From Gammaproteobacteria bacterium RIFCSPHIGHO2_12_FULL_36_30 (GTDB lineage: Bacteria; Pseudomonadota; Gammaproteobacteria; Coxiellales; Coxiellaceae), in assembly GCA_001801815.1 (NCBI GenBank), contig MGXU01000007.1:62001-126000 (forward strand): a stretch of DNA of 64,000 bases, given 5' to 3'. The notes below the pieces were generated by a model. That model saw nothing but the letters and a program-made list of their open reading frames with translations. It did no database searches and was not told the origin of the DNA. Below, in pieces: positions 1 through 46,054 of this stretch. Each line of letters opens with the position of its first letter. Positions within the stretch are counted from its first letter, which is position 1. The translations under genes and the position numbers were made by a program.

Positions 1-868
1 AGTATAAAAAACAGCCATAACTATTATTTCGACCGTATTTTTCCGCTTGTTTTAGCAATTGTGCGGTATCAGTAAAACCCATTCTCCATGAAATCTCTTC
101 AAGACACGCTATTTTAAGGCCTTGACGACGCTCGATAATTTCAACATATTGTCCTGCTTCGATAAGAGCGTTATGTGTTCCAACATCCATCCACGCTATT
201 CCGCGACTTAAAAATGTTACTTTTAATCGTTTTTCTTTTAAATAAATTTTATTAATATCGGTAATTTCAAGTTCATTTCTAGCGGATGGGCGCAATGCTT
301 TTGCAATTTGAATTGCATATGCATCGTATATATATAAACCGGGAACAGCATAATTTGAATCAGGCTCTAGTGGCTTTTCGATGATATCTTTTATTTTTCG
401 ATTTTCATCAAATGAAATAACGCCGTAACGTTCCGGATCACTGACATAGTAACCGAAAATGGTTGCGCCGATATTACATTGCACGGAAGCTTGCAACAAT
501 TTTGCTAAACCTTGTCCATAAAAAATATTATCTCCCAAGATTAAGCAAACAGAATCATTTCCAATAAAATCTTCAGCAATAATCAACGATTCAGCAATAC
601 CATTCGGCGATGATTGAATTTGATATTGCAGTGAAATTCCCCACTGCGCTCCATTACCCAACTGTTGCTTAAAAAGCTGTATGTCTTTTTCATTCGTAAT
701 AATTAATATTTCATGTATTCCAGCAAGCATCAATACGGACAGTGGATAATAAATAAGCGGTTTATCATAAACAGGCAAAAGTGATTTGTTGACACTAAAG
801 GTGAGTGGATATAATCGTGAACCAGTTCCTCCAGCAAGCAAAATCCCTTTTGTCTTTTTTGCTGACAT
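1..868 (-). CDS. rmlA: Glucose-1-phosphate thymidylyltransferase RmlA (C-terminus cut by window edge)
   Basis: Makes dTDP-glucose from dTTP and glucose-1-phosphate, the first step to dTDP-L-rhamnose, in the cytoplasm. The reading frame is open from ATG at 868 to the window edge and translates to a protein starting MSAKKTKGILLAGGTGSRLY, with the nucleotide-binding signature GGTGSRLYPLT and the downstream KSLLPVYDKPLIYYP and LGDNIFYG motifs typical of RmlA. About 289 codons are present, close to the full family length (about 290), so only the last few residues are missing. An AGGGGA ribosome site lies 5-10 bases before the ATG. Other rml genes would be expected to the left of the window. It is divergent from the next gene. 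Confidence 0.95.
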   Translation of the reverse strand, partial: MSAKKTKGILLAGGTGSRLYPLTFSVNKSLLPVYDKPLIYYPLSVLMLAGIHEILIITNEKDIQLFKQQLGNGAQWGISLQYQIQSSPNGIAESLIIAEDFIGNDSVCLILGDNIFYGQGLAKLLQASVQCNIGATIFGYYVSDPERYGVISFDENRKIKDIIEKPLEPDSNYAVPGLYIYDAYAIQIAKALRPSARNELEITDINKIYLKEKRLKVTFLSRGIAWMDVGTHNALIEAGQYVEIIERRQGLKIACLEEISWRMGFTDTAQLLKQAEKYGRNNSYGCFLY

Positions 869-29284: not shown

Positions 29285-29308
29285 TATTTAACTCATCCCA
29301 TAACCCAT

Positions 29309-30103
29309 TTACAAAGTATTTACTGTCGACTGAACTGTTTGATTCGCACTAAAGCTTGGTAGCAATTGATTAATCACGCGGTTCCAGTTTGTAATACCAA
29401 GTGGTGATACATAAACAATATCGTTATTTCTTAGAATAAATCTTTGCGCCACCATCATTGCCTGTGGTGATTTTGCATTGAGTGCAAATACAGTCAACCG
29501 TTTCAAATTTCCGCGAATCACATAAATACGAGAAGTATTAGCAGTACTCACGCTAGTACCACCAACAAAGTTCATTGCGTCCAATAACGAAGTAGGTTTG
29601 TCGGTGAGTGGAATTGTTCGCTGACCACCCAATTCTCCCATCACTTGTATTTCCTGACTTCTAAATTGAACAACACGCACTGTCACTTGTGGATTACGAA
29701 TATACTTTGAAAGTTTTTTTGCAATAACAATTTGAATTTGGGGCAATGTCAAGCCAGCAACATGAACTGTTCCTGCGAGTGGAAAAGAAATCGTACCTTG
29801 AAAACTGACTAGAAAACCAGATTGTGTAGGAGAACTCATTTGTGTGGTCGGCGTTGTGAGTTCAGCATGCTGCCACACAATCACATTTAAAATATCATAA
29901 GGTCCAATACAATAAGGTGGTGGCGGTTCATCGTGTTGCACAATCCATGTCGGATTTAATTGAATTAATTTCGTTTGAACAACATGTCCATTAACATAAT
30001 ACTGTGGTGCTGGATTTTGCGGATCCATGTAAGTGCCGAGTAACGTGCACCCAGGCAAAACTAATACAGTCAATAATAAAAAAATCCGTCTTATCCATTC
30101 CAT
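29309..30103 (-). CDS. wza: Outer-membrane polysaccharide export lipoprotein Wza
   Basis: A 264-residue protein with a lipoprotein signal: hydrophobic stretch then LPGC, the Cys at residue 19. It has a Poly_export domain (PYDILNVIVWQHAELT), one SLBB-like domain (VMGELGGQRTIPLTD) and a C-terminal amphipathic stretch (NWNRVINQLLPS). It is much shorter than E. coli Wza (379), with one SLBB region instead of two. It forms the outer-membrane pore of the export machine with Wzc. It overlaps wzb by 13 bases. Confidence 0.9.
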   Translation of the reverse strand: MEWIRRIFLLLTVLVLPGCTLLGTYMDPQNPAPQYYVNGHVVQTKLIQLNPTWIVQHDEPPPPYCIGPYDILNVIVWQHAELTTPTTQMSSPTQSGFLVSFQGTISFPLAGTVHVAGLTLPQIQIVIAKKLSKYIRNPQVTVRVVQFRSQEIQVMGELGGQRTIPLTDKPTSLLDAMNFVGGTSVSTANTSRIYVIRGNLKRLTVFALNAKSPQAMMVAQRFILRNNDIVYVSPLGITNWNRVINQLLPSFSANQTVQSTVNTL

Positions 30104-30540
30104 AACTTAGTCTGCCACAATCCCCAATTCTTTTTTATTGATTCAAAAACATTTTCGAATATTGCTTGTTCTTTTCGATAAGGATCAACTATTTCTTCAT
30201 TAGACCATTTTCCAAGATTGAAAATCTTACCACGGCTACTTGGAAAAGCAAACGCTAATTTTTCTTTCTGCCACGTCTCCATTGTAAAAATAATTTCAGC
30301 GTGTGCAACATCATTTTTATCAATTTGCTTTGCAGAATGTTTGCTTGCATCAATTTGAAATTGATTTAAAATAATCTGCATTTCTGGTGCGATGGATTCT
30401 GACTGCATTGCATGAATCCCTGCAGAAGCAACTTGAATTCCTGAAAAACCTTTTTTAATTAGTTGATCACGCGCCCAATATTCTGCAACTGGACTTCTAC
30501 AAATATTTCCGACACACACAAACAAAATATTTTTAAACAT
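30091..30540 (-). CDS. wzb: Low-molecular-weight protein tyrosine phosphatase Wzb
   Basis: A 149-residue phosphatase with the catalytic loop CVGNICRS (Cys9, Arg15) and the general-acid loop IVDPYRK. It dephosphorylates the Wzc tyrosine tail, allowing cycling of Wzc assembly. It is the first gene of the 24 kb leftward block. The 55 bases to the divergent gene at 30596 must hold promoters for both directions, though none is clear. No ops/JUMPstart element (RfaH site) is visible upstream. Confidence 0.92.
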   Translation of the reverse strand: MFKNILFVCVGNICRSPVAEYWARDQLIKKGFSGIQVASAGIHAMQSESIAPEMQIILNQFQIDASKHSAKQIDKNDVAHAEIIFTMETWQKEKLAFAFPSSRGKIFNLGKWSNEEIVDPYRKEQAIFENVFESIKKNWGLWQTKLWNG

Positions 30541-30595
30541 TTGAACACCCCGCTGCTATGTGCTAAAACTGTATGCCCGTTAAAAGAAGAAGTAA

Positions 30596-31393
30596 ATGAG
30601 ATTTTATAATATGGATTTTTATTATTTTTCACACTTCTTGCAAATATGGATATTGCCTCCAGGTTTAAATTTATTGTTGATGGGTGTTGGACTAATATTT
30701 TTGACACGCACACAATATCTGGGAAAAAGTTTAATTGCGATTTCCGGTATTAGCTTTTGGTTGTTTTGCACGCCAGCTGTTGCACAATTATTAATAAATT
30801 ATTTACAAGAACAGTATCCACGATTACAAGTAGGTCAAATAACAAAAAAAAAATCGAGTGCTATTATTGTGTTGGGCGGTGGTCATACAATCTCCACCGA
30901 AACGAGTAGTGGTTATATTTTAAGTGGTTCTACCGAATTTAGATTACGATATGCAGTCTATCTGTATCGTCATACACATTTTCCAATTATCGTATCCGGC
31001 GGTGCAACACATAAATCCTCTCCAGCTGAATCTCACTTTATGAAGGTAGAAATGAAAAACTATTTTAAAACACCAGTTGCCTGGCAGGAAAATCAAAGTA
31101 TTAATACGAGAGATGAAGGAAATCTCATGGTGCCTATATTAGAAAAACACAATATAAGAATAGCTTATTTAATTACAAATGCTTGGCATATGCCGCGTGC
31201 CATGTATACATTTCATTATTCTTTTAGACATACAGATATTAAAATCATCGCGGCCCCGATGGGATATAGTACGTTTCAAAGAAATCAAGGGGTATTAAAT
31301 TTTTTACCATCTCTTGGTGGGTTAGATACAAGTGAGTTAGCAATACATGAATATATTGGAATATTAGCATATCGCCTAAATAATTTAATTTGA
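30596..31393 (+). CDS. YdcF/ElyC-family (DUF218) membrane protein
   Basis: A 265-residue protein with two N-terminal membrane segments (about 20-39 and 46-66) and a periplasmic DUF218 domain beginning SAIIVLGGGH. Relatives (ElyC, SanA, YdcF) act in envelope integrity and peptidoglycan/undecaprenyl lipid metabolism. It is the start of the rightward glycan group; an ATG at 30611 could also serve as start. The link with glycan assembly is by neighbourhood. Confidence 0.83.
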   Translation: MRFYNMDFYYFSHFLQIWILPPGLNLLLMGVGLIFLTRTQYLGKSLIAISGISFWLFCTPAVAQLLINYLQEQYPRLQVGQITKKKSSAIIVLGGGHTISTETSSGYILSGSTEFRLRYAVYLYRHTHFPIIVSGGATHKSSPAESHFMKVEMKNYFKTPVAWQENQSINTRDEGNLMVPILEKHNIRIAYLITNAWHMPRAMYTFHYSFRHTDIKIIAAPMGYSTFQRNQGVLNFLPSLGGLDTSELAIHEYIGILAYRLNNLI

Positions 31394-31427
31394 AATACAC
31401 AAACGGAATACGGTAAACAGTGCACGC

Positions 31428-32951
31428 ATGAGTTTTAAAAAAAATATATTTGCTAATTATTGTGGTCATTTTTATACCTTATTTGTTTGTATCACAATTG
31501 TACCTCTATATTTACAATATCTTGGTGCTGCTGCTTTTGGTTTAATTAGTATATATGTCATGCTGCAGTCTTGGTTAAGCTTGCTTAATATTGGATTAAC
31601 GCCCGCAATGTCACGAGAAGTTACCTGTCTTCGTGATCGAAAGAACGGTTTTTTTAAAATTAAAAAATTACTACGCAGTTTAGAAATTATTTTTTTGTTT
31701 ATTAATCTATTGATAATGCTCGGCGTAGCGCTTTGCAGTTACTGGATAACGCACCATTGGTTAAAAGTACAAAATTTATCTTACATTGAGGTAATACATT
31801 GCGTCATGCTAATGGGGGTAATGGTTAGCTTTCGTTTTTTCGCTGATCTTTACCGCGCGGGCATTATGGGTTTGGAGCAACAGGTTTGGTTAAATGGTGT
31901 TGGTATCATTCTTACCACGTTGCGATACTGCGGCGCTTATATTTTGTTGCGCTGGGTAACAAGAACTCCCGTGCATTTTTTTGAGTATCAACTATTGATC
32001 GCCGTGATTGAACCAATTTTATTAGGGTTGAAATGCTATAATATTATACCTACTTCGGTAAATTATTTATTAGGTTTTACTATCTCATGGGATTTGATTA
32101 GAAAAATATTTCCTTTTGCGTGTAGTCTTTTTTACACTGCATTTCTTTGGATATTGCTGTCTCAATCAGACAAACTTATTCTGTCTCATGTTTTATCTTT
32201 AACAAACTACGGATATTTTGGATTGGTTACGATTATATCAGGTGGAATATTGCAATTTTCAATGCCAATTAATTTAGCACTTTTACCGAGAATGACACGT
32301 CTATTGTCGCAAGGAAAAAAAGAAGAAATGCTACAACTCTATCGAAATGTAACGCAAATTGTGGTTGTTATTATGCTGCCGCTGATAGGCATCATCGCGA
32401 TTTTTAGTACTCATGTTATCTATATTTGGACGGGGAATAAAATAGCCGCGAACTGGGCTGGCCCTATCCTTTTTTGGTATTCGCTCGGAAATGGATTTTT
32501 TGCTATTTCATTTTTTCCATTCTATCTGCAGTATGTACACGGTAAACTAAAATTACAGGTCATCATTGATACCTTATTTACGCTAATTTCTTTCCCGTTA
32601 ATTGTTTTTTTTGCTTATCATTACGGCGCCAAAGGAACTGCAATCATCTGGTTTATAACGCGCAGTATATTATTTCTCATTTGGGCTCCGATCGTACATT
32701 ATAAATATGCACCAGGTCTCCATTGGAAATGGCTTATGAAAGATATTTTTCCAATCGCAGCAACAACATTAGTAGTATTATGTTTTATTAAAAAAATCCA
32801 TGTTGATTTTGAATTGATAAGCAGAGATGAAGGCTTTATAATCCTGTGCGGTTTTACTTTTATTGTATTAATGGCTAGTGCGGCTGCCTCGAGTACATGT
32901 CGACATTTTTTTTCAAAATTTATTCGTGAGAGAAGGAATTCTGTTGCATGA
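31428..32951 (+). CDS. wzx: Wzx-type oligosaccharide flippase
   Basis: A 507-residue membrane protein with about 12-14 hydrophobic segments and no soluble domain, with the MATE/MVF-like N-terminus of polysaccharide synthase (FANYCGHFYTLFVCI, LGAAAFGLISIYVM). Wzx flips undecaprenyl-PP-linked repeat units to the periplasm. It overlaps the next gene by 4 bases (ATGA). Confidence 0.88.
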   Translation: MSFKKNIFANYCGHFYTLFVCITIVPLYLQYLGAAAFGLISIYVMLQSWLSLLNIGLTPAMSREVTCLRDRKNGFFKIKKLLRSLEIIFLFINLLIMLGVALCSYWITHHWLKVQNLSYIEVIHCVMLMGVMVSFRFFADLYRAGIMGLEQQVWLNGVGIILTTLRYCGAYILLRWVTRTPVHFFEYQLLIAVIEPILLGLKCYNIIPTSVNYLLGFTISWDLIRKIFPFACSLFYTAFLWILLSQSDKLILSHVLSLTNYGYFGLVTIISGGILQFSMPINLALLPRMTRLLSQGKKEEMLQLYRNVTQIVVVIMLPLIGIIAIFSTHVIYIWTGNKIAANWAGPILFWYSLGNGFFAISFFPFYLQYVHGKLKLQVIIDTLFTLISFPLIVFFAYHYGAKGTAIIWFITRSILFLIWAPIVHYKYAPGLHWKWLMKDIFPIAATTLVVLCFIKKIHVDFELISRDEGFIILCGFTFIVLMASAAASSTCRHFFSKFIRERRNSVA

Positions 32952-33973
32952 TGGCAAGGACAGAGGCACAAATTGTAGAAAGCTGGTTACACACAGAATC
33001 TCCACTCGTTAGTGTCATATGCATTACATATAATCATGAACCTTATATCGCCGACGCAATTGAAAGTTTTTTAAAACAAAAAACCACTTTTCCATTTGAA
33101 ATTATTATACATGATGATGCTTCCACAGATAAAACATCTGAGATTGTAAAAAGCTATACTGAAAAGTATCCCCGTATTATTAAACCCATTTTTCAAAAAG
33201 AAAATCAGTCATCACAATTTAAAAAAAATGTTTTACTACCCATCATCTTAACTGCTGTCTCTTATGCGCGAGGAAAATTTATTGCATATTGTGATGGTGA
33301 TGATTATTGGACTGACGAAAATAAACTTGAAATTCAAATTGCAGTGATGCAAAAAAATCCAAATTGCGATATGAGTTTTCATCCGGTGTTTCGTAAGAGC
33401 AGCGATAGAAAAAAACGAAATAGAATTATTGCCAAACATAGCTCGCAGAATAAAATATTTTTTACAAAGCAGCTTGTTTTAGGTGCGGCACAATTTTGCC
33501 CAACAACATCTTTTATTTTTAAAAGCAATATATTTAAATCTATACCACAGTGGTTATTTGATGCACCTTGTACTGATTATTTTTTACAAATACTTGCCTC
33601 ACTTAGAGGAGGCGCCATTTACATCAGCAGAGTCATGGCTGTATACAGAGCTTTTTCTCTTGGGTCATGGTCAGGAAGAATGACAAAAGAAGAAAACTTG
33701 GTTAATGATTATTTTGTTGGGATGTTACAATCACTTAAAGATATTAATTTACATACTGCATATCAATATGATAAAGAAATTGCCATTATCACCAAGAAAC
33801 TTTGTTTTTATATGTGTATTAACCCAACACTTTCGTTAAAAAGAAGAAAAAAAATTTTTAGTGAAAATAAAAAACTGCTCAATATAAGCAGAAGAATATT
33901 GTGGTTTCTACTCTTTAACAATACAAAATTACCTCGATTTTTTTTTAATGCAAAAAACTATATTTTTCATTAG
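32948..33973 (+). CDS. GT2-family glycosyltransferase
   Basis: A 341-residue GT-A glycosyltransferase: VSVICITYNHEPYI (donor-binding start), HDDASTDKTSEI, and the metal-binding triplet in YCDGDDYWTDENK. It lies between wzx and asnB, so it probably adds one sugar of the repeat unit. The start is one of two ATGs in tandem (32948 or 32951). Sugar specificity cannot be read. Confidence 0.87.
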   Translation: MMARTEAQIVESWLHTESPLVSVICITYNHEPYIADAIESFLKQKTTFPFEIIIHDDASTDKTSEIVKSYTEKYPRIIKPIFQKENQSSQFKKNVLLPIILTAVSYARGKFIAYCDGDDYWTDENKLEIQIAVMQKNPNCDMSFHPVFRKSSDRKKRNRIIAKHSSQNKIFFTKQLVLGAAQFCPTTSFIFKSNIFKSIPQWLFDAPCTDYFLQILASLRGGAIYISRVMAVYRAFSLGSWSGRMTKEENLVNDYFVGMLQSLKDINLHTAYQYDKEIAIITKKLCFYMCINPTLSLKRRKKIFSENKKLLNISRRILWFLLFNNTKLPRFFFNAKNYIFH

Positions 33974-33993
33974 AGTAAATACATGGCGAGAAA

Positions 33994-35871
33994 ATGTGCG
34001 CAATAACCGGCATTATTAGCAATATCTTTGAATATAATCAATCACGATTTTTAAATCCAATATTATCCGCAATGCATCACCGCGGACCTGACGCAACAGC
34101 GCAAGAAACTTTTAATCATGCCGGATGCTTTGGACATAATCGTCTTTCAATTATTGATTTAAATGAACGCGCAACACAACCAATGTGGGATGCATCACAT
34201 CGTTATTGTTTAACATTTAATGGTGAAATTTATAATTATCTTTTAATAAAAAAAGAATTAATACAGTCAGGACATTTTTTTCGAACAGAATCTGACAGTG
34301 AAGTATTAATTGAAGCATGGGCAGAATGGGGGATCAATGCGATTGAAAAATTAGTCGGTATGTTTGCATTTGCAGTTTGGGATAATCATCTTAAACATCT
34401 ATTTTTAGTACGTGATCGCATGGGTGAAAAGCCCTTATTTTATGCGCCGATTAATAAAAATTTTAAAAATGGTTTAGTTTTTGCTTCTGAATTAAAAGGA
34501 TTAACACGATACCCTTTTATTGAAAAGAAATTATCCATGACAGCGTTAAATCATTACATTAGTTTTAATTATACATCAACTAATGATTGCATTTTTGAAG
34601 GCATTTACAAACTACCTCCTGCATCTTATTTATTTTATAATTTAAATACGCATGAATATAAAATTTCACAATATTGGATATTAGAAAATTATTTTAAAAA
34701 TAAAAAAATAATTAGCGCGCCAGACGCACAGGATCAATTAAATTCTTTATTAAAAAATTCTGTTGCAGAGCAATCAATAGCTGATGTTCCATTGGGCGCA
34801 TTTTTATCTGGCGGAATTGATTCATCATCTATTGTTGCGAATATGTCACATAATAATGCGAATCAAGTGAACACATTTAGTATTGGATTTAAAGAAAAAA
34901 CATACAGTGAATTAGAAAATAGCCAAAAAGTTGCCGATTATTTATCTGTAAAACATCATGCAGAAATTTTATTTCCAAATATATCTAATCAATTATCAAA
35001 AATTGTATGTGCATTTGACGAACCATTTGCAGATACATCAATGATTCCAACTTATCTTTTGTCAAAATTTTCTAAGGAATTTGTAAAGGTGAGTTTGTCA
35101 GGTGATGGAGGTGATGAATTATTCGGCGGATATATTACTTATCAAGCAGATCGGTATCATCAAATATTTAAATATTTACCAACTACTGCAAAAAAATTAT
35201 TAATGAGCTTGATAAATTATTTACCCACTTCATTTAATAAAATTAGCCTTGACTATAAAGCAAAACAATTTTTGCGTGGATCTTTTTTGACTGCGCAACA
35301 AGCACATTTAAGTTGGCGTGAGATTTTTAATGCGCAACAAAAAAATAAATTATTTAAAAGTGAGTTTCATCTAAATAATTTCAATAACAGTAATTTGGAT
35401 TGGTTTAATAATGTTTCTGACTGTCATTATCTTGATCAAGCTATGTATGTCGATATGAAAACATGGCTGACTGATGATATTTTAGTAAAAGTAGATCAGG
35501 CTAGCATGGCACATTCTTTGGAAGTCAGAGCGCCATTTTTAGATCATCGTTTAGTAGAATTTGCAGCGAGTTTGCCCGTTTCTTATAAACTAAATAAAAA
35601 AATTTTAAAAAATAGTCAGAATAAAACATTGCCTGCTTTTGTTTTACAGCAATCTAAAAAAGGTTTTAATAGTCCAGTTTCACATTGGCTAAAAAATGAT
35701 TTATTTTCTATGGCGTACGATATTACCACAAGCCGAAATTTAACAAATTTTTTTGATAAAATGGCAATTGAAAAACTATGGCTTGAGCATCAGAATAGCG
35801 TGTGCGACAATGGCTACCGTTTATTTAATTTATTGTGTTTAGGTTTGTGGCTGCAAGGACGTCATGTTTAA
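33994..35871 (+). CDS. asnB: Asparagine synthetase-like amidotransferase (AsnB family)
   Basis: A 625-residue enzyme. The mature N-terminal Cys2 of CAITGIISN is the glutaminase nucleophile, HHRGPDA and RLSIIDL complete that domain, and GAFLSGGIDSSSI near residue 268-280 is the ATP pyrophosphatase loop of the synthetase half. Full length is as in AsnB. In O-antigen loci such genes (WbpS-like) amidate uronic acids, which fits with the UDP-HexNAc dehydrogenase at 56379-57623. A housekeeping role in asparagine synthesis is the alternative. Stop overlaps the next gene by 8 bases. Confidence 0.88.
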   Translation: MCAITGIISNIFEYNQSRFLNPILSAMHHRGPDATAQETFNHAGCFGHNRLSIIDLNERATQPMWDASHRYCLTFNGEIYNYLLIKKELIQSGHFFRTESDSEVLIEAWAEWGINAIEKLVGMFAFAVWDNHLKHLFLVRDRMGEKPLFYAPINKNFKNGLVFASELKGLTRYPFIEKKLSMTALNHYISFNYTSTNDCIFEGIYKLPPASYLFYNLNTHEYKISQYWILENYFKNKKIISAPDAQDQLNSLLKNSVAEQSIADVPLGAFLSGGIDSSSIVANMSHNNANQVNTFSIGFKEKTYSELENSQKVADYLSVKHHAEILFPNISNQLSKIVCAFDEPFADTSMIPTYLLSKFSKEFVKVSLSGDGGDELFGGYITYQADRYHQIFKYLPTTAKKLLMSLINYLPTSFNKISLDYKAKQFLRGSFLTAQQAHLSWREIFNAQQKNKLFKSEFHLNNFNNSNLDWFNNVSDCHYLDQAMYVDMKTWLTDDILVKVDQASMAHSLEVRAPFLDHRLVEFAASLPVSYKLNKKILKNSQNKTLPAFVLQQSKKGFNSPVSHWLKNDLFSMAYDITTSRNLTNFFDKMAIEKLWLEHQNSVCDNGYRLFNLLCLGLWLQGRHV

Positions 35872-36745
35872 TCAAGCTATTTCTATCATAGTTCCTGCTT
35901 ACAATGAAGAAAACGCAATTGTTGAAACTGTTAATGAAATTAATATTGTTTGTAAAAATGCAAAAATAAATACGTATGAAATTATTATTGTGAATGATGG
36001 TTCAACCGATAACACAGCTGAAAAATTAAAACAAACAAACGCGATGATTATTAATCATCCGCACAATATTGGTTATGGAAAATCTTTAAAAGATGGGATT
36101 AAAGCAGCGCAATATGACACGATTGTGATTACCGATGCCGATTGTACTTACCCTTTTGACCAAACACCTAAACTACTTGAGGAATATCAAAAGGGATTTG
36201 ATATGGTTGTAGGTGCACGCACTGGAAAACATTATCAAGAATCAATAGTAAAGGCACCCTTACGTCGTATTTTACGAGGTATTGTTGAATTTGCAGCGGA
36301 GCGTAAAATTCCTGATATTAATTCTGGATTAAGAATATTTAGCAAAACTAAAATTACACCGATGTTATCTCGATTATGTAATACATTTAGTTTTACAACT
36401 TCAATGACATTGGGTTTTATGATGTCGGGTTTTTTTGTTAAATATGTTGAGATTCCTTATCATGAACGAAATGGAAAAACTAAAGTAAAATTATTGAAAG
36501 ATTCATTGCGCACGATGCAATATATTTTGCAGGCGATTAATTACTACAATCCCATTAAAATTTTCTTATTATTTACTGGTTTTTGTTTATTTCTATCCTT
36601 TTGGTTTTTTGTGATTGCGTTAATTACTCACTTAAAAACATTATTTGTATTTGGTGTTGGAACAGCGTTGTGCGGTTTAATGGTTTTGTGTTTTGGGTTG
36701 TTGGCTGATTTGTTGAAGCAGATTATGGATAGTAAGGCGGGATAA
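35864..36745 (+). CDS. GT2 glycosyltransferase, dolichyl-phosphate mannose synthase-like
   Basis: A 293-residue protein: GT-A domain with SIIVPAYNEENAIV, EIIIVNDGSTDNTAE and VITDADCTYPF (metal-binding Asp residues), then two membrane segments at the C-terminus (about 225-285). This layout is that of DPM1/ArnC/GtrB-like enzymes that load a sugar onto undecaprenyl phosphate for periplasmic use. The GT-C-like proteins at 39720 and 42264 could be its partners. Overlaps asnB by 8 bases. Confidence 0.86.
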   Translation: MFNQAISIIVPAYNEENAIVETVNEINIVCKNAKINTYEIIIVNDGSTDNTAEKLKQTNAMIINHPHNIGYGKSLKDGIKAAQYDTIVITDADCTYPFDQTPKLLEEYQKGFDMVVGARTGKHYQESIVKAPLRRILRGIVEFAAERKIPDINSGLRIFSKTKITPMLSRLCNTFSFTTSMTLGFMMSGFFVKYVEIPYHERNGKTKVKLLKDSLRTMQYILQAINYYNPIKIFLLFTGFCLFLSFWFFVIALITHLKTLFVFGVGTALCGLMVLCFGLLADLLKQIMDSKAG

Positions 36746-36748
36746 TTC

Positions 36749-37420
36749 ATGTCACAAAAAAATTATGCCCTACAAAACTCAGGTGGTTATATTGATAATT
36801 TTATTTTAGAAAAACGTCTTGAAATGTATAAGATTTTTTCCAACGAATTTCCTGAACATGGTTATGAAAGTATTCTTGATGTTGGTGTTACTGCTGAAAA
36901 GAATGCTATTTCAGCTAATTTTTTTGAGGAAAATTTTCCGGATAAGAAAAAAATTATAGCACTATCAAATCAAGATGGTTCTTTTTTAGAGGCAATTTAT
37001 CCAGGTTTAAAATTTCAATCGGGCAATGCAAAGCAACTTCCGTTTAAAGATAATAGTATCGATGTTGTTTTTTCATCTGCTGTCATTGAGCATGTTGGAT
37101 CATTAGACGAACAAGCAAAAATGATTAAAGAATGTTTTAGAGTTTGTAAAAAAGGCGTGTTTATAACAACACCGAATCGGTGGTTTCCAATTGATCCTCA
37201 CACTTTTATTCCATTTATTCATTGGCTGCCAAAAAAATGGCACAGAAGTATTTTAAAAAAAATAGGATTGCAATTTTTTGCTTTAGAAGAAAATTTAAAT
37301 CTTCTAGAAACAAAGGCAATTCAAAAGATATGCGAAAGTTTATATATAAAAAATGTTATCATAAAAAAATTAATTACTTTTGGATTTATTAGTAATTTAA
37401 TAATTATTATCAGAAAATAA
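36749..37420 (+). CDS. SAM-dependent methyltransferase (type 11-like)
   Basis: A 223-residue protein with LDVGVTAEKNAI in place of the usual DxGxGxG, SGNAKQLPFKDNSIDVVFSS (motifs II/III), and IEHVGSLDEQ. The weakened motif I (VGVT) is typical of a subfamily I recall in glycan loci. Starts 3 bases after the GT2 gene, so co-transcribed. Substrate unknown. Confidence 0.72.
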   Translation: MSQKNYALQNSGGYIDNFILEKRLEMYKIFSNEFPEHGYESILDVGVTAEKNAISANFFEENFPDKKKIIALSNQDGSFLEAIYPGLKFQSGNAKQLPFKDNSIDVVFSSAVIEHVGSLDEQAKMIKECFRVCKKGVFITTPNRWFPIDPHTFIPFIHWLPKKWHRSILKKIGLQFFALEENLNLLETKAIQKICESLYIKNVIIKKLITFGFISNLIIIIRK

Positions 37421-37499
37421 GATGGTACTTTCTTAATTTTTTCAACTAAAGCAATAAGTCAAACTGATAATAACTTAATTTACTATGAAAAATAAAATT

Positions 37500-39483
37500 T
37501 TAAAATGGATTTGGGTATTTTTTTAAATATAGGTGCGCTATTTTAGTTGAAGCTGCCGCCGTTAAGTGGCCATTGTTTTGTACCCCTACATTACGCATAT
37601 TATCAAAATATATTGGTATCTTTTTAATTTCTGAAAAACAAGTTTTGTTGTCACACATTACTTTGCTGGAATCAATAAGGATAAGGGTAGGAAATTTTCG
37701 TTTTAAGCCTATAATCATTTTTCTTGAAGGATCTTGTATTTTATGCACTAAAGATACTTTTATTTTACAGGTCAAATTAAGATTAAATGCTTCGGAAATA
37801 ATTGGGCATTTTGGATTTAAATATAAGGGGGGGGGGTGTGTCCAAAATAATCACAGGAATTGCTGATTGGCTAGTAATAATACTTAATGCGGTTATTAAT
37901 CCTTTTCTGAGTAAAGAATAGTCTTCACTTTTACATAACTTAACATTCACTAAGTCATTATTATAAGCAGCCCATATTCCGCCCATCACAACATATTTAA
38001 AATCATGTTTTTTTATGATATTTGTTATAGCAGAATTGCGAGCACGCATCGCCTTTGTTTCATACGATGGAGATGAAACTCCTGGTAAATAAGCAGCGGC
38101 ACCAAGAGTAACTACATACCCCTTTAATTTTGCTCGCTTTAACATATCACTAATCATATTAATGTCTGCAGCCGCGTGGGAATCTCCAACAAGCAATACT
38201 TTTGTTCGGCTTTTTGTCTTGTCGCCAATAAAACAATCTTTTTCTGGTGTTGGTTTTTCTGGATCTCCACCAAAACAATCCCCCAACACACTGTACCCTG
38301 GAGTAATAGATAAATTATAAATTTTATCTATTTTATTGCTAAATCGACGTTCGTAGCCATGTGTCACTCGCACAAAAAACATAAAAGTAATCGCACAAAG
38401 AATCGGTATAACCAAAAGATAAATGAAAGTTTTACTGAAGCTAAATTTTTTAGTTTTTCTAAATGGGTTCTCAATAAACTTCCATGAAAGAAATGCTAGC
38501 AAAATAGATACAAGAAAGATTAGCAGTTTAATTTGAGCAGTCATTTGAATATTTAGATCATGCGTATAAGCAAGAATAGGCCAGTGCCAAAGATAGAGAG
38601 AATAAGAGATCAACCCAATAAAATAAAATACACGAGAACTCAATAAGCTACTTACTATTGTTTCATGATGTGTTCCAGAATAAATAAGCAGCAGCGTCCC
38701 AAAACAAGTTATCACTTCCCAACAACCTGATAATGCACTATTAGGGTTGGTAAAGCACGTAGTAAAAATAATCACCGATAAGCCAAATAATGAACACCAT
38801 TGATTCCAAACGTTAGTCAAGCGAGGGATTTTCAAACCATACAACGCAAACATACAACCAAACAACAGTTCAAATGCTCTGGAGGTTGGTGAATAAAATG
38901 CGACACTAGTGTGGCCATAGATCCATAGACAGACTGAACTTAAGGCAGAAATTACAGTAATAAGACCCAATACAATACAAAATGTTTTCCTTGAAAGAAA
39001 TTTTATTCCATAAAAAAGCAGAAGCGGCCAAAATATATAAAACTGTTCCTCTACTCCTAAAGACCATATATGAATCAACGGGACGTAGTGGGTATTATCT
39101 TGAAAATAACCAGTAGGCACTATTCTCCAGAAGTAAATATTAGCAACAGATGTCAAGGAGGCAAGAAGCGATGAGCTATAATGCGCAAGGTCTTGCGGAA
39201 GTAAAATAATAACGGCAACTAGGGTCGTAAAAAAAAGCACCGTTAACAAAGCCGGGAGAATTCTGCGCATCCGACGAAGATAGAAGATACGGAATTGAAA
39301 ATTACCATTTATAATATCTCTGTTAATAATTGATGTTATCAAAAAACCAGATATAACAAAAAAAATATCTACGCCCAAGAGTCCACCAGAAACACAAGTG
39401 ATGCCAAGATGAAAAAAAATAACTAGCAGGACTGCTATAGCCCGCATTCCTTGAATGTCTTTTCGATATGTATTTTTCTTCAT
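37500..39483 (-). pseudogene. O-acyltransferase (acyltransferase-3 plus SGNH), out of frame at a C10 tract
   Basis: OafA-type transferase that would acylate a surface sugar. The first frame (39483-37783) gives 566 residues: RAIAVLLVIFFHLG (catalytic His), GVDIFFVISGFLI, about ten membrane segments, then an SGNH domain with GDSH at 433-436. It changes frame at ten C on the coding strand (plus strand 37827-37836) and stops early. The remaining frame (37775-37500) carries the missing SGNH end: MCDNKTCF, HLTAAAS and the C-terminus. With nine C the frame is 661 codons including stop, a normal length. So one base separates on from off. Phase variation or an assembly error in the homopolymer are both possible. 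An extra 10 residues sits between the Asp and His of the C-terminal motif (see findings). Confidence 0.85.
37827..37836. repeat. Homopolymeric G/C tract, ten bases, inside the acyltransferase gene
   Basis: Ten consecutive G on the plus strand, in an otherwise AT-rich region where long G runs are rare. It encodes consecutive Pro codons (TPPP) on the minus strand and coincides exactly with the frame change. Slipped-strand mispairing at such tracts is the classic phase-variation mechanism. Confidence 0.9.
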
Positions 39484-39719
39484 AAGAAAATCTTAATCGA
39501 GTATTGATTGATAGATGTGTATCAGCTATAAACAAGAACAAATCTTTCAGGTTGAAACCTCAGTATGCTTATTTTCAAATAAGCTGCATATAATTACTAC
39601 AGGCTAAAAAAAGAAATTTGTTATCATGTCGATGAAAATGCTATCATCATTCTTTTGCGTAGCCAAGGAAGATAAAAATCGGGGATCATGCAACAGCAAT
39701 ATTCTCATTAAAAAAATAA
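39484..39719. promoter_or_regulatory. Divergent intergenic region with two inverted repeats
   Basis: This 236-base stretch separates the acyltransferase (leftward) from the GT-C-like gene (rightward). It contains AGGTTgaAACCT at 39549-39560 and an 8-base stem GCTTATTT/AAATAAGC with a 2-base spacer at 39567-39584. These may bind a regulator or form a hairpin; no clear -35/-10 pair is seen. Confidence 0.4.
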
Positions 39720-40991
39720 ATGGCCACTTCTTTAAAAAAAAAATATCTGCATAAAACTCCATACACCATTCTTGCTTTAGTGGTTATTTTTTTTCTCTGT
39801 TCGCATACACCCAATACCGGATACGATACACCTTCATATGTTCAATTTAGCATTGTGAGACCTCCTATTTATCCATTATTTATTTGGCTTTTTCACTGGG
39901 CAGGTAAATATCAATTTCAATTCGTCATGTGGGCACAAAGTATTTTAACATTTTCATCTTTACTCTATGCGAGATATTGGCTTATAAAAAATTTAAAGGT
40001 ATCTGATTTCTTAATTTTTTTTGTATTTTTATTTGTCTTAATCACTATCTGCTTTCATTTTCAAATGTGGTACATAGAATCAGAAGGTCTATCATTTCCG
40101 TTTTTTATATTTACATTTTTTTTATTAATGCGGTGTGTTCAGGAATTCAATATAAAAAGAATCGTGTACTTAGCATTGTGGGTTGCGCTTTTGATATTAA
40201 CAAGGCTACAATTTTATTATTTTTATGGTGTTTTTATATTATTGTGTGGGTGGTATTTATGGAGAAAAGTACCAATAAAATCCATGGGCATTTGTGTTTT
40301 AATATTGTTAGGATCAATTTTATTAACCTTTTTAGCTGACAGAAGTTATCATTATCTTAAGCAAGGTGTTTTTGAAGGTGAGCCTACTTCCGGTGTGCAG
40401 TTTGTTATTCAACCTCTTTTTTTAGCAAACACAAATGCAATTGATTATTTTAAAAATGCAACTCAAAAAGCAATCGTTCAAAAAATGCTGTATAAAATCA
40501 GGGAACAAAAATTAAACCAAACTGTTTCTGCCTTAAAAACATTTAAGTTGCAGCATTACGAATATGCTTATGAAGAATATAATAAAAATTATTTATCGAT
40601 ACAGTCAATTGTATATAATACTTTTACTGATCTAACTGCCGCAAAACAAAATAAAATTACACTATCTATTGCAAAAATATTAACTTGTTATGAAATGAAG
40701 AGGAATTTCTATTTTTATTGCTGGAAAGTAATCGATTCAATGGGTGGAGTACCGTGGTTTTTATTTTTTTGTTTATTATTATTTTCTACCGCTTTTAAGA
40801 TTTTTAGAAACAGAAATGATAATTTAAATTTGACGCAAGTGCTTGTCGCATCAGCAGTTGTAATTACTTTCTGTAACGCACTACTTGTGGCAGTCGTTGA
40901 ACCTGCTCTCCCTCCTTATTTTTGCTACACACAATTTTTGCTTTACTGCTTAGTCGCCCTCTTTGCTGATAGGATTTTTTTTAAAACATAA
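39720..40991 (+). CDS. GT-C/GT39-like multi-spanning membrane protein
   Basis: A 423-residue membrane protein with about nine hydrophobic segments. After the first one comes HTPNTGYDTPSYV and then RPPIYPLFI, like the first periplasmic loop (catalytic Asp) of GT-C transferases that use polyprenyl-phosphate sugars. A soluble stretch at about 220-320 is not recognised. There is no clear ribosome site at 39720, so the start is uncertain. A Wzy polymerase is an alternative but its fold is less well matched. It overlaps the next gene by one base (TAATG). Confidence 0.55.
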   Translation: MATSLKKKYLHKTPYTILALVVIFFLCSHTPNTGYDTPSYVQFSIVRPPIYPLFIWLFHWAGKYQFQFVMWAQSILTFSSLLYARYWLIKNLKVSDFLIFFVFLFVLITICFHFQMWYIESEGLSFPFFIFTFFLLMRCVQEFNIKRIVYLALWVALLILTRLQFYYFYGVFILLCGWYLWRKVPIKSMGICVLILLGSILLTFLADRSYHYLKQGVFEGEPTSGVQFVIQPLFLANTNAIDYFKNATQKAIVQKMLYKIREQKLNQTVSALKTFKLQHYEYAYEEYNKNYLSIQSIVYNTFTDLTAAKQNKITLSIAKILTCYEMKRNFYFYCWKVIDSMGGVPWFLFFCLLLFSTAFKIFRNRNDNLNLTQVLVASAVVITFCNALLVAVVEPALPPYFCYTQFLLYCLVALFADRIFFKT

Positions 40992-42157
40992 TGGGTAACG
41001 TGTCACTGAAAATTTTAGTAGTAATAGAAAAAAACACTTGGATGGATATTCATCTTGCAAATAGTCTTGAATCAATGGGACACATAGTAACTCGCTTCTA
41101 CTATGGTGATTGCATAGGTGAGTTCTATGGAGTAAGTCGACACAACGAACGAAAAAAAAAGAACAACTCATTATTTAATTTGGTAAAAAATCTAAAAAAA
41201 GAGCAAGATCTTAATTTGATTTTTTGTTGTGTTTATGACGATTTTTTGTTACCAAAATATGCAAAAGCATTATCAATGCTAAATATTCCGATGGTAAATT
41301 ACAATGTTGATATGCCAACTCATTGGTTTCGACAAATTCGTACAGCAAAATATTTTGACATTGTATTATGCGCTCATCAGAATAATATGGGGCATTTAAA
41401 AAAATATGCGAAAAAAGTTCTTTACTTCCCAATGGCCGCACAACAATCACATCTTATTTATACTGCATCACAATTAGAGAAAAAATATGATGTTACATTT
41501 TTAGGAATGGCTTATCCCTATAGACAACAGATACTATCTGAATTAATAAAATCAGATATACCGCTATTTATTTTTGGGAAAAACTGGAACTCTGATCAAT
41601 CAAATGTTTATGTAAAAAATATTTCTGAAACATTATATTATATGTTTCATTATGCTTGGCCGCGATTTAAAGCAGAGGGGTTGATCAGTTTGTGGAAAGC
41701 ATTTCTAAATCGCTTTTGTTTAAAACATGACACAAAACCCATTCCCTTTATTCCTCAAAAGGCAATTAAAGGCGTGCTATCTCAAACTGAATTATCAGCT
41801 CTATTTTATCAATCTAAAATTAATATTGGCTTTACTCGATATGCAAATTTTCATCACAATAAACCGGGTCAATGCCAAATGAAATTGCGTGATTTTGAAG
41901 TCCCAATGGCTGGTGGTTTTTATTTAGTTGAGAAAGCACCGGGATATGAGCAAGAATTTATTGATGGTGAAGAAGTAGTCACATGGAAAACTACTGCGGA
42001 TTTATTAGAAAAAATTCGTTATTACCTCAAGCATGATATAGAAAGAGATGCAATTGCTCTACGAGGACAAAAAAGAGCACTACAAGATCACACGTGGGAA
42101 AAAAGATTTAACATCTTATTTGTGGAATTGGGATTTTTAAATAAAAATGGGGGGTGA
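40991..42157 (+). CDS. GT-B glycosyltransferase, CgeB/family-1-like
   Basis: A 388-residue cytoplasmic protein. Seen: IFCCVYDDFLLPK, VNYNVDMPTHWF, YDVTFLGMAYPYRQQIL (second Rossmann domain), and FEVPMAGGFYLVEKAPG with a following EEVVTW, the donor-site region of CgeB-type glycosyltransferases. It starts within the stop of the GT-C-like gene. Its sugar is unknown. Confidence 0.78.
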   Translation: MGNVSLKILVVIEKNTWMDIHLANSLESMGHIVTRFYYGDCIGEFYGVSRHNERKKKNNSLFNLVKNLKKEQDLNLIFCCVYDDFLLPKYAKALSMLNIPMVNYNVDMPTHWFRQIRTAKYFDIVLCAHQNNMGHLKKYAKKVLYFPMAAQQSHLIYTASQLEKKYDVTFLGMAYPYRQQILSELIKSDIPLFIFGKNWNSDQSNVYVKNISETLYYMFHYAWPRFKAEGLISLWKAFLNRFCLKHDTKPIPFIPQKAIKGVLSQTELSALFYQSKINIGFTRYANFHHNKPGQCQMKLRDFEVPMAGGFYLVEKAPGYEQEFIDGEEVVTWKTTADLLEKIRYYLKHDIERDAIALRGQKRALQDHTWEKRFNILFVELGFLNKNGG

Positions 42158-42263
42158 AATTGAATGACATCACTTCTTTTTGTAGATGCTTGTATGTAAT
42201 TATTCATTGCTATATGCTCTCTCGCTGAAAAACATTATGTTGTTCATCTAAAAGGAATTGTCT

Positions 42264-43457
42264 ATGCAGGGAAAAACTGCTTTAACGATAACATCATTTT
42301 CAAACAGCGATATTTTTTCGTCAAATAAAATTATTTATATTTTTTTGTTACTATTCTGTCTTCAACTTCCTTCATTGGCACCTATTATCAGATATCTTCA
42401 TATTGGCATGTATTGGTTTTTACCATCTTATTTGATTATTTTTGTTATTTTCTATTTTTTTTTATTATCTAAATCGTTACAATCATTATACTTTCAAAAA
42501 TTACTAGACTCATCTTTTACTACATTAATATTATTGCTATTTCTTCTCATAATAAATGCAATTTTATACCATCATGAGCTTGTCTTACAGTCTATTGGTC
42601 GCGGAACTGATGCTCGTGATGCGCTAACTTTCACAGGTTATAATTTAGTACATGGTTACTTCCCATATTCGCACTTAACATATTTAAAGAATCCTGAAAG
42701 CGCAGGTCCTGGTCTCATCATTTTTGCACTTCCTTTTACTTATAGTGGATCATATGGTTTATTAATACCATTGCTAATCACTACGTCAGCTTTTGCTATC
42801 AAAATAATTACGCGTAGTGCATTCAATACAAATTTATATTTACTTTGTTTATTCTCATCCCCTGCTGTCATGCAATTCTTAGCTGAAGCAAATGATTATC
42901 TTATTATTGGGCTAGTATATGGCTTAATAGCGGTAGTGCTTTTTTATTTTTGGGGGAAAAACTGGTTGTATGATATTAGTTTTATTGTTTTTATTGGAGT
43001 ACTAGCTACTGCACGATTAAATTTTTTTTATTTAGCGCCACTGCTTGGTTTTTTTATTTGGAAAAGAAATAAAAAACAAGGGATATATTTTGCATTAACA
43101 GGTTTGCTGATCACGCTATCAATACATATTGGATTTTATTTATGGAATCCACATCACTATACACCTTTGTATGTAATACATTATGCGCGTTATACATTTA
43201 ACAATGCTTATGGCTTAAGCATATTAATATCTGCTTGTGTACTTTCAGGAATAATAACTATTGCAGCTGTAAAAAATACCTTGGGATCATGGTTATTTTT
43301 TTTGTGGCTTTGTTTAACTACCCCATTAGCGGTTGGCGCTCTTTTTTGCTTAATGAACGAGCACTGGAATATTCAAGGAATTGGGCTTGGTTATATCACT
43401 TTAACCGCACCCATTTTAATTATGTGGATTAGCATGTGTCACAAAAATAAAATTTAA
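42264..43457 (+). CDS. GT-C-like multi-spanning membrane protein
   Basis: A 397-residue protein with about ten membrane segments. An acidic residue in GRGTDARDAL and the sequence GYFPYSHLTYL, followed by SAGPGLIIFALPF, recall the first loop of GT-C/DUF2029-type transferases. AAGG stands 6-9 bases before ATG 42264, deciding that start over an in-frame TTG at 42258. It overlaps the convergent GT2-FkbM gene by 4 bases. Wzy polymerase is the alternative. Confidence 0.55.
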   Translation: MQGKTALTITSFSNSDIFSSNKIIYIFLLLFCLQLPSLAPIIRYLHIGMYWFLPSYLIIFVIFYFFLLSKSLQSLYFQKLLDSSFTTLILLLFLLIINAILYHHELVLQSIGRGTDARDALTFTGYNLVHGYFPYSHLTYLKNPESAGPGLIIFALPFTYSGSYGLLIPLLITTSAFAIKIITRSAFNTNLYLLCLFSSPAVMQFLAEANDYLIIGLVYGLIAVVLFYFWGKNWLYDISFIVFIGVLATARLNFFYLAPLLGFFIWKRNKKQGIYFALTGLLITLSIHIGFYLWNPHHYTPLYVIHYARYTFNNAYGLSILISACVLSGIITIAAVKNTLGSWLFFLWLCLTTPLAVGALFCLMNEHWNIQGIGLGYITLTAPILIMWISMCHKNKI

Positions 43458-45013
43458 TTCAAGTTTTTTTTAGAGCACAGGATATCGCAATAGACTTCAG
43501 ATGAGTTTAGAATATTTCTGTGATCTGTTCCCAGTTCTAAAAGTACCAATCTGTTAGCTTTATTTAGCCGGTAGAAAAAATATTCTTTCGTATAAAAAAA
43601 CTCAACGAGGTCTTCGGCTCTATAACCTAATACATTCATCATACTGGGACAATACTCGAACCATACCACACAGTCCGGGTTTTGCTCCAAAGTTTTTTCC
43701 ATTCCTCGGCACACTGCCAGCTCGTATCCCTGCACATCAATTTTTATAAATGAGATCGGGGTTATCATTTGATATTTTGTTTTTAGTAAATGATCTATGG
43801 TAATGACAGATACCATTTGTGCTTGAATATTATCACTCATCTGGGCACGAAACTTATCTGTCAACACGCGATGATCTCCGTGATGAGCATCATTTTCCCA
43901 CAATTCTAACCCTCCTGTTTTGTCACCTACCGCTGTCGCATGAATATTTATTTTGTCAGCAAAACAATAGCGCTTCACCACCCTTTTTAGCATATTAACA
44001 TTTCGCATTTCAGGTTCAAATGCGAGTACTTTGTATGGCGAAGTAATTGCTTGTGCATAAATACAAGCTGTATATCCAATATTCGAACCAATATCTAAAA
44101 TATAGCCGTTTTGAAAAAACTCAGGGTAATTTCTAACAAGTTTTGCGCTGCAATCTTCAACATATTTTTTATAAAAAAAGTATGTTGAAATAAATGCAGA
44201 CTGCACCCAAGCAAAATTTAATAAACCAGCTCGATTTATTCTTTTGTATAGTGATAGAAAAATAGCAATTAATCGATCTTTTCGTGTCGATGGACTCACG
44301 AATAATCTTGATTTTATTTCACTTAAAAAACGCCAAATAAATTGCAATCCGGTTTTAAAATTTGGCAACCCGGATTCACCAGCGACACGCTGTCCTTCTA
44401 TTGTCGGAAATTCCACAATATTCATGCTATTTTTAAAAGCACGAATTGTCATTTGATATTCAATTGTATGATCATAAGCATTTAACTGTAGTTTTTTACC
44501 TGCTTCTCGCGTAATCGCCCTGTAACCATTAATTGAATCCGTTATAAATGATCCGCTTCGTCTAAAGAAAATATTGGCAAGTATATTAAATGCGTTATTT
44601 ACCCATTTTCTCCATTTAAAGATCAAATGATCTTCTTCATTTACTGCGCCTTTCATCATACGTGACGCAATCACGAGGTCCGCCCCTTTTTCTAACTCTA
44701 AACGAAATCGTGCTAAATCATTTGGATCTTCATTGCCATCTGGGGAAAAAAAAATATAAGCATCCGCATCAATTTTTTCGATTGCATCTTGGAAAGCTTT
44801 TCCTCTCCCTGTCACGTTTTGTGTTAAAACAGGAATTCCTCTTTGTCTATAATATTCAACAGTGCCATCAGTTGATCCGCCATCAATCAGATAAATTTCA
44901 TCATAAGAGTTTTTATCTTGTTTTTCTACTATAGGCTGAATAATTTTTACACATTCAATTTCATTGCGCGCCAATATACAAAGTGCAATTTTTTTTCTTC
45001 CTATCCGTGACAT
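43454..45013 (-). CDS. Fusion of GT2 glycosyltransferase and FkbM methyltransferase
   Basis: A 519-residue protein. Residues about 1-230: GT-A domain, KIALCILARNEIE, YLIDGGSTDGTVE, GRGKAFQDAI and FFSPDGNEDP (donor/metal region). Residues about 290-519: FkbM-type SAM methyltransferase with LDIGSNIGYTACI, LAFEPE and FIKIDVQGYELAVC. No break lies between the halves. A bifunctional enzyme that adds a sugar and methylates it is implied. The ATG at 45013 is preferred over a GTG at 45064, although its ribosome site is weak. Confidence 0.85.
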   Translation of the reverse strand: MSRIGRKKIALCILARNEIECVKIIQPIVEKQDKNSYDEIYLIDGGSTDGTVEYYRQRGIPVLTQNVTGRGKAFQDAIEKIDADAYIFFSPDGNEDPNDLARFRLELEKGADLVIASRMMKGAVNEEDHLIFKWRKWVNNAFNILANIFFRRSGSFITDSINGYRAITREAGKKLQLNAYDHTIEYQMTIRAFKNSMNIVEFPTIEGQRVAGESGLPNFKTGLQFIWRFLSEIKSRLFVSPSTRKDRLIAIFLSLYKRINRAGLLNFAWVQSAFISTYFFYKKYVEDCSAKLVRNYPEFFQNGYILDIGSNIGYTACIYAQAITSPYKVLAFEPEMRNVNMLKRVVKRYCFADKINIHATAVGDKTGGLELWENDAHHGDHRVLTDKFRAQMSDNIQAQMVSVITIDHLLKTKYQMITPISFIKIDVQGYELAVCRGMEKTLEQNPDCVVWFEYCPSMMNVLGYRAEDLVEFFYTKEYFFYRLNKANRLVLLELGTDHRNILNSSEVYCDILCSKKNLN

Positions 45014-45115
45014 ACCAAACCCCAAAAAATAGACATATAAATCACATAGCGTACAGTAATTCACTATGCTTTAATAAGCAAATATTATTAAGTCCTATAA
45101 AATATCGGGGATATT

Positions 45116-46054
45116 TTGGAATCGAATAAATACAAAATAAATTTTAAGATTGAATATCAACAATGGTTGCAATATTTTTCGTCTGTAGAAAAGCCAAATT
45201 TGTCTCAATCTTGGCATTATGGCGATGCCAAAATGAAAAGCCACCGCTGGAAAATAATTCGGGCTATCGTCAGCGAAAATGAAAAGCCAATAGCTCTGAT
45301 TCAAGTATGGTATAAAAAAATTTTATTTTTCAAATTTGCTAGAATTAGTTATGGTCCTTTGTGGATTATTCCAACTCCGTCATTAGAACAAATTCAAGCT
45401 ATATTTTACATTATTAAAAAACAATGGTGTTTGAAAAAATTGTGCGTGTTATCAATTGCACCTAATCTCAAAAATTCATCAGAAAATAATAATGTATTGG
45501 AAAATTTAGGCTTTTTCAAACGCAAAGGTATGCAATATGAATCTGGATTAATTGATTTAACACAATCTATAGAAACGTTACGTTGCAACCTTCGTCAAAA
45601 TTGGCGCAATCAATTAAATTTTGCTGAAAAAAAGGAATTAATATTTACGGTTAGCGATTATGATTCTGATTTCCAGTGGCTTATAGCTTGTTTTAATACA
45701 TTTCGAAACGAGAAAAATTTCTATGGTCACTCAGTAAAATTATTGAGGGCATTATGGCAGTCTAATACCGAATATCAGAAAACCAATGTAGGATTTGTAA
45801 CTCATCATAATGAAAAGGTAGCGGGTATATTAATTGCTCAATCAGGAGCATCATGCGTTCCACTGATAATCTGGGTAAACAAAAATGGTCGTAAATTGAA
45901 TGCGGGAAATTTTTTATTATGGAATAGTGTATTGTACTCAAAAAAACAAGGTACTTTATGGTTTGATCTTGGCAGCATCATCAACAACACATTTAAAACA
46001 GGGCTACCTCACATACCATTTCAGCTCATTGGTGAATATTATGGATTTATTTAA
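45116..46054 (+). CDS. FemAB-like acyl/aminoacyl transferase
   Basis: A 312-residue protein with the GNAT-type double domain of FemAB/BioF2-like proteins: QSWHYGDAK at the start, RISYGPLWI, and LIDLTQSIETLRCNLRQNWRNQLNFAEK in the middle. In glycan loci such proteins are thought to attach an aminoacyl or acyl group to a sugar. The start is TTG at 45116, with GGGGA 5-9 bases before it; the next Met is about 40 residues in, too late for the conserved N-terminus. I am fairly sure of the fold, not of the substrate. Confidence 0.7.
   Translation: MESNKYKINFKIEYQQWLQYFSSVEKPNLSQSWHYGDAKMKSHRWKIIRAIVSENEKPIALIQVWYKKILFFKFARISYGPLWIIPTPSLEQIQAIFYIIKKQWCLKKLCVLSIAPNLKNSSENNNVLENLGFFKRKGMQYESGLIDLTQSIETLRCNLRQNWRNQLNFAEKKELIFTVSDYDSDFQWLIACFNTFRNEKNFYGHSVKLLRALWQSNTEYQKTNVGFVTHHNEKVAGILIAQSGASCVPLIIWVNKNGRKLNAGNFLLWNSVLYSKKQGTLWFDLGSIINNTFKTGLPHIPFQLIGEYYGFI

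Follow-up and report, generated by a model that had tools for sequence, protein, structure and literature searches.

Why does an acyltransferase gene lose its reading frame exactly at a run of ten C? The gene lies on the minus strand, from 39483 to 37500, of the 64,000-nucleotide stretch of Gammaproteobacteria bacterium RIFCSPHIGHO2_12_FULL_36_30 (Coxiellaceae) that was analysed here (the window). Low GC (33%), a genome size of 1.74 Mb, DUF3757 proteins and a family that includes single-contig genomes as small as 0.6 Mb likewise point to a gammaproteobacterium of Coxiellaceae type. It encodes an AT3-SGNH acyltransferase whose frame is lost at a C10 tract; the plus strand reads ten G there, that is, ten C on the coding strand. 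A sequence-only reading of this DNA had proposed a phase-variable switch, caught in its off position. On balance we lean towards the same answer, a real slipped-strand contingency gene caught off and functionally like meningococcal pglI. A consensus error of a single base or a recent fixed loss would leave an identical sequence picture.

An acyltransferase split at a homopolymer

The longer open reading frame (Table 1) contains a complete AT3 domain (PF01757, Acyl_transf_3, residues 9-332, 1.7e-25, exceeding the Pfam cut-off) followed by an incomplete SGNH match (PF19040 model positions 2-154 of 248, residues 403-553, 1.8e-14), and its final 14 residues, downstream of the tract, are out of frame. 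The end of the SGNH domain is matched by Pfam in a separate frame (37500-37775, PF19040 positions 178-247, 3.4e-5). Codon-usage scores calculated per frame and trained on the other genes of the window point to frame 0 before the tract and to frame 1 after it, where usage is still coding-like, though weak. The two Pfam matches to SGNH in different frames and the switch in codon usage place the break exactly at the tract, as the sequence-only reading had it, and together with PF01757 they bear out its identification of an acyltransferase whose SGNH end lies in another frame. Joining the halves gives 661 codons, stop included. The coordinates and arithmetic of this earlier claim are right, and the size is indeed normal, since intact relatives measure 658-681 aa.

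No further stop or frameshift is found across the gene's length of about 2 kb. The SGNH domain of the sequenced copy is not fused to AT3 in one frame but split at the tract; the copy is a broken homologue of the AT3-SGNH family (OafB/PglI type), and a one-frame fusion arises only if the frames are joined. With SGNH interrupted in this way, the description of this copy as off is supported. A frame break at the tract, with the gene intact onward in another frame, is a mark of homopolymer contingency genes and is present here. At codon about 550 of 660, or 83% of the gene, the tract is neither at the 5' end nor in the promoter, which are the usual though not obligatory places in such genes.

The gene sits in a cluster with chain-length/export proteins, a flippase, glycosyltransferases, an asparagine synthase-like protein and a methyltransferase (all by inspection); the genes flanking the acyltransferase are on the other strand. 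Judging from the family and this neighbourhood, the enzyme probably adds an acyl group, usually acetyl, to a glycan.

Table 1. Features of the acyltransferase locus (window positions) and G/C tracts elsewhere in the genome and genus.
Feature	Position or promoter layout	Strand	Remarks
Polysaccharide cluster around the acyltransferase	27077..46054		ORF translations; functions by inspection
ORF of 566 aa	37783..39483	-	AT3 membrane domain and first two thirds of the SGNH domain
C10 homopolymer	37827..37836	-	Codons about 550-553; frame change point; from sequence and codon usage
Rest of SGNH C-terminal part, other frame	37500..37826	-	PF19040 match; ends N-G-H-L-T ... stop
L210 (congener)	TTGACA-17-TAAAAT		G9 in spacer; before small signal-peptide protein
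L183 (congener)	TTGACA-17-CATGAT		Promoter with tract in spacer; before small signal-peptide protein
L144 (congener)	TTGACT-16-TACAAT		G/C8-9 tract in spacer; before small signal-peptide protein
L191 (this genome)	TTGACA-16-CACACT		Promoter with tract in spacer; before small signal-peptide protein
L201 (congener)	TTGACA-19-TATTTT		G/C8-9 tract in spacer; before small signal-peptide protein
In-frame enzymes with G/C runs of 8-9			Short-chain dehydrogenase (SDR), methyltransferase, gpmI, FAD-oxidase-like, pyrB-like, gltX, uppS; named by inspection

The tract compared with chance

Apart from the tract, no G/C run in the window is longer than 6, so that lengths 7, 8 and 9 do not occur, and no other C8 match is found, with 0.04 expected from window shuffles. 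Markov models (orders 1-4) fitted to the window predict about 0.05-0.1 G/C runs of at least 10 in 1.74 Mb, the size of this genome, which holds two, one of them a terminator hairpin. The claim that such a run is rare in this AT-rich DNA is upheld by these counts. A coding G/C tract of at least nine that exceeds chance, a mark of homopolymer contingency genes, is present here.

Could the protein sequence force the tract? Additional relatives were taken from a public genome collection, and in the 89 compared at the tract position a single Pro is strongly conserved (80 of 89), while the residues after it vary. The closest relatives read DVPPLLNVSKYC, DFPPLYNVPKIC and DVPSLFHVRRVC there, with mixed codons, and no C run occurs at this position in any of the eight relatives examined at codon level. 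For three Pro codons all to be CCC has a probability of about 8e-4 under local usage (CCC is 9.4% of Pro codons). On the single conserved Pro and the mixed codons of relatives, constraint by the protein was rejected, as was a link to a missing tRNA-Pro, the GGG, TGG and CGG isoacceptors all being present.

Runs of CCC are prone to +1 slippage and to polyproline stalling. Ribosomes might then change frame at CCC-CCC-CCC-C and make a short and a full-length enzyme from one DNA, and the direction of the frame change matches +1 slippage at CCC. We consider such a translational bypass very unlikely, however: relatives are normally fused without a site of this kind, and the cognate decoder, tRNA-Pro GGG, is available together with TGG and CGG.

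Relatives and catalytic motifs

Homologues were sought at E <= 1e-20 in the window's genome and 54 related genomes. At this threshold the acyltransferase is present in one of six congeners (G003). Three further genomes of the family also have it, two with close relatives of the gene (about 40% identity) and one with a weak match, as do four genomes at a greater distance. Intact relatives share the pattern D-x-P-P/S-L-x-x-V-x-x-x-C, and in the window gene, once its frames are joined, D and C stand equally many residues apart. Identity to the four closest intact relatives is 39-40% before the break and 27-39% after it. Because there is no second lesion and the C-terminal part is conserved nearly as well as the N-terminal part, the gene was either intact until recently or is still intact in some cells.

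These observations bear on a one-way slippage frameshift that was recently fixed in a dispensable gene, an event common in the reduced genomes of host-associated bacteria. The genome, at 1.74 Mb, would suit such a pseudogene, and so would the absence of the gene from most congeners, the late position of the tract and the missing Asp of SGNH block V. Nevertheless, about 2 kb without a second lesion, a C-terminal identity to relatives near that of the N-terminal part and the weakly coding-like codon usage downstream speak against decay, and a fixed loss appears improbable.

The RX10H motif, which characterizes TMH1 of the AT3 domain, is present as R14..H25 (by inspection). The catalytic Ser (GDSH, block I) in the N-terminal part and the block V His (NGHL) in the C-terminal part align with those of relatives. 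The Asp of the block V DxxH is absent, the gene reading NNGH with Asn in its place. The closest relatives read QNSH, PDSH and GSCH, and DxxH is found only in more distant ones. Since the nearest relatives deviate at the same site, the Asn is a trait of the subgroup and not a sign of decay. The whole close subgroup is unusual in block V; in one AT3-SGNH relative (L013, genome G014), which has PDSH, the GDS serine also reads GDC. In Salmonella OafA, mutants of the catalytic His or Ser are almost inactive and D587A retains about 10% activity (PMC7448272).

Could the short form be an enzyme in its own right? Switching of the C-terminus has been proposed for late tracts of Helicobacter canadensis, and the short form would then function as an AT3 enzyme that acts on another acceptor. 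The late position of the tract fits this, C-terminal phase variation is on record (PMC2823697), and AT3-only enzymes exist (PMC9558356). On the other hand, the SGNH domain is required for the activity of the fused enzymes OafA and OafB (PMC7448272), and the short form severs SGNH in mid-domain instead of removing it cleanly. This explanation is the most remote of those weighed here.

Other G/C runs in the genome and genus

If the acyltransferase tract were a contingency locus, would it stand alone? The genome has four G/C runs of at least 8 in all. Besides the acyltransferase C10 there is a second C10, which forms one arm of a hairpin after ileS, and a C8 (L191, G000:C5:5737-5744) directly behind a TTGACA box and 64 nt upstream of a 153-aa secreted DUF3757 protein. 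The same arrangement, with C9, is found in a congener (L183), and L191 is a candidate promoter-spacer switch. The remaining run, a C9 (L184, G000:C3:85813-85821), covers codons 11-13 of an orphan ORF without disturbing its frame. The product, 162 aa long and membrane-anchored, has no Pfam match and was not found in congeners; the ORF is a possible second coding contingency gene of this genome.

A census of seven genomes of the genus yielded 40 G/C runs of at least 8. All were classified by inspection, and each was tested, against resampled flanks, for a position inside the spacer of a sigma70-type promoter (80 strand tests). Five runs lie in a near-consensus sigma70 spacer (Table 1), each with p <= 0.004, where fewer than one of the 80 tests is expected at p <= 0.01. 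All five are 64-173 nt upstream of a small signal-peptide protein. Across the census, a signal-peptide gene begins 40-180 nt downstream of a run in six cases against 0.9 expected at random positions, with a P of 3e-4 that is indicative, as the signal-peptide rule was set after the cases had been seen and the null comes from this genome only. Furthermore, in two congeners G/C9 tracts break the frame in or just after the signal peptide of small secreted proteins (L207, about 1500-1508, and L137:1520-1528). This pattern is the one expected of contingency loci, which makes it more likely that the acyltransferase tract is one too. Tracts of contingency type elsewhere in the same lineage are a supporting and not a defining feature, and they are present. 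They also strengthen one part of the earlier claim of a phase-variable switch, namely that a slippage-prone tract is the cause; the late position of the tract in the gene weighs against the claim.

Not every G/C run can be counted as a contingency locus. In three species a G-run/C-run hairpin with T behind it stands after ileS, and the C9-C11 runs at L204, L187 and L202/L208 form arms of it; their use is that of a terminator. These hairpin arms, in this genome and two congeners, and the harmless runs inside enzymes rule out so general a reading. The motif TTGACAACCCCCC was likewise rejected as a family-wide module, since it occurs in only four of 36 family genomes and, in the one of these that lies outside the genus, no secreted gene follows it.

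The census also revealed two further arrangements. Reverse transcriptase genes of two congeners and perhaps a third genome (L195, L199, L215, possibly L150; RVT_1 by Pfam in L199) each shift frame close to a tract of G8-9 that lies after the RT domain and before a conserved C-terminal piece (VPHPRTLRKAREQVKWMV...); a switch, a programmed shift or overlapping genes are the three options. At L190:1502-1509 a G8, read on the reverse strand, lies right before a type IV pilin-like ATG, in the position of the ribosome-binding site.

The runs inside enzymes are informative for one further explanation, a consensus or assembly error, in which the organism's own tract would be in the joined phase and the gene simply on. 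A C10 is the most error-prone type of site, and the joined phase keeps the spacing of the relatives. However, the 158 homopolymers (A/T of at least 7, G/C of at least 6) inside intact window ORFs are all unbroken, and the congener enzymes with runs of 8-9 are all in frame, C8-C9 runs included. An error is therefore unlikely, and a slippery tract would remain even if it were true.

Comparison with known switches

The closest known case is pglI of Neisseria meningitidis. Its product is an O-acetyltransferase of AT3-SGNH type (PMC9558356), the gene contains a G9-15 tract (PMC5953494), and O-acetylation of the pilin glycan is on/off (PMC11130364). The two genes share the AT3-SGNH plan and a genic poly-G/C tract, and would share on/off O-acetylation of a surface glycan. 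They differ in lineage and glycan, and the window gene has one known tract length and a tract that comes late, at 83% of its length.

Two other phase-variable O-acetyltransferases, Haemophilus influenzae OafA and Escherichia coli K1 NeuO, acetylate surface LOS or capsule in a stochastic on/off manner, and the window gene would resemble them in this. The H. influenzae switch is a tetranucleotide repeat, and NeuO, which is not an AT3 protein, uses a repeat of another kind. H. influenzae oafA is an AT3 gene encoding a phase-variable O-acetyltransferase (PMC9558356, PMC3938747). Salmonella OafB and OafA, AT3-SGNH enzymes of the O-antigen, resemble the window gene in domain plan and in having both the GDS serine and the block V histidine, whereas their block V Asp is not conserved in it; oafB is switched epigenetically, from upstream, and not through a coding homopolymer (PMC9558356). 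Chlamydia trachomatis, an obligate intracellular bacterium, has an on/off gene with a poly-G tract and, in a promoter spacer, a poly-A tract (PMC4514472).

In a literature search, no account of phase variation by homopolymers turned up for this order. The kind of switch is thus already known, and the lineage appears to be new.

A probable contingency gene caught off

How would such a switch work? The gene is one for an OafB/PglI-type AT3-SGNH acyltransferase, which would modify the surface glycan of the surrounding cluster, and its SGNH-coding part has acquired a slippage-prone poly-C tract. Slipped-strand mispairing at replication may then alter the length of the tract, so that cells would vary. 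Some lengths would join AT3 to the full SGNH domain, giving a working enzyme and an acylated glycan. At other lengths, including the one sequenced, translation ends 14 residues beyond the tract and the product lacks the last part of SGNH, catalytic His included; the modification would then be off. The truncated enzyme is presumed inactive by analogy with the OafA catalytic-residue mutants. The changed modification may in turn alter recognition by host or phage.

We favour slipped-strand contingency because the break falls at the tract, the tract exceeds chance, the remainder of the gene is undecayed and intact relatives have the spacing of the joined phase. Promoter-spacer and signal-peptide tracts in the genus, in-frame runs in conserved enzymes and the phase-variable AT3-SGNH pglI of N. 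meningitidis (genic G9-15) agree with it. The preference is a modest one, as several points stand on the other side. A single tract length is known, and the species is represented by one genome. In contingency genes the tracts cluster towards the 5' end, and late coding tracts such as this one are atypical, although known in H. canadensis (PMC2823697). Genomes of N. meningitidis, N. gonorrhoeae and N. lactamica each have 15-19 poly-G tracts (PMC5953494), against four G/C runs of at least 8 in this one. Finally, the block V Asp is replaced by Asn, in a site where the nearest relatives deviate too.

A broader proposal, which we hold tentatively and place a little short of probable, is that the acyltransferase belongs to an undescribed poly-G/C contingency repertoire of this gammaproteobacterial genus, in which small secreted proteins, DUF3757 among them, would be tuned by the length of tracts in promoter spacers, while coding tracts would turn surface-glycan acylation and secreted proteins on and off.

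Implications

If slipped-strand switching is confirmed, single consensus genomes of these bacteria would misreport such genes as broken, and a simple read-based assay would become available for variation within the host. Moreover, a little-studied and probably host-associated group would be seen to rely, like Neisseria and Campylobacter, on slipped-strand mispairing to vary its secreted proteins and its surface glycan.
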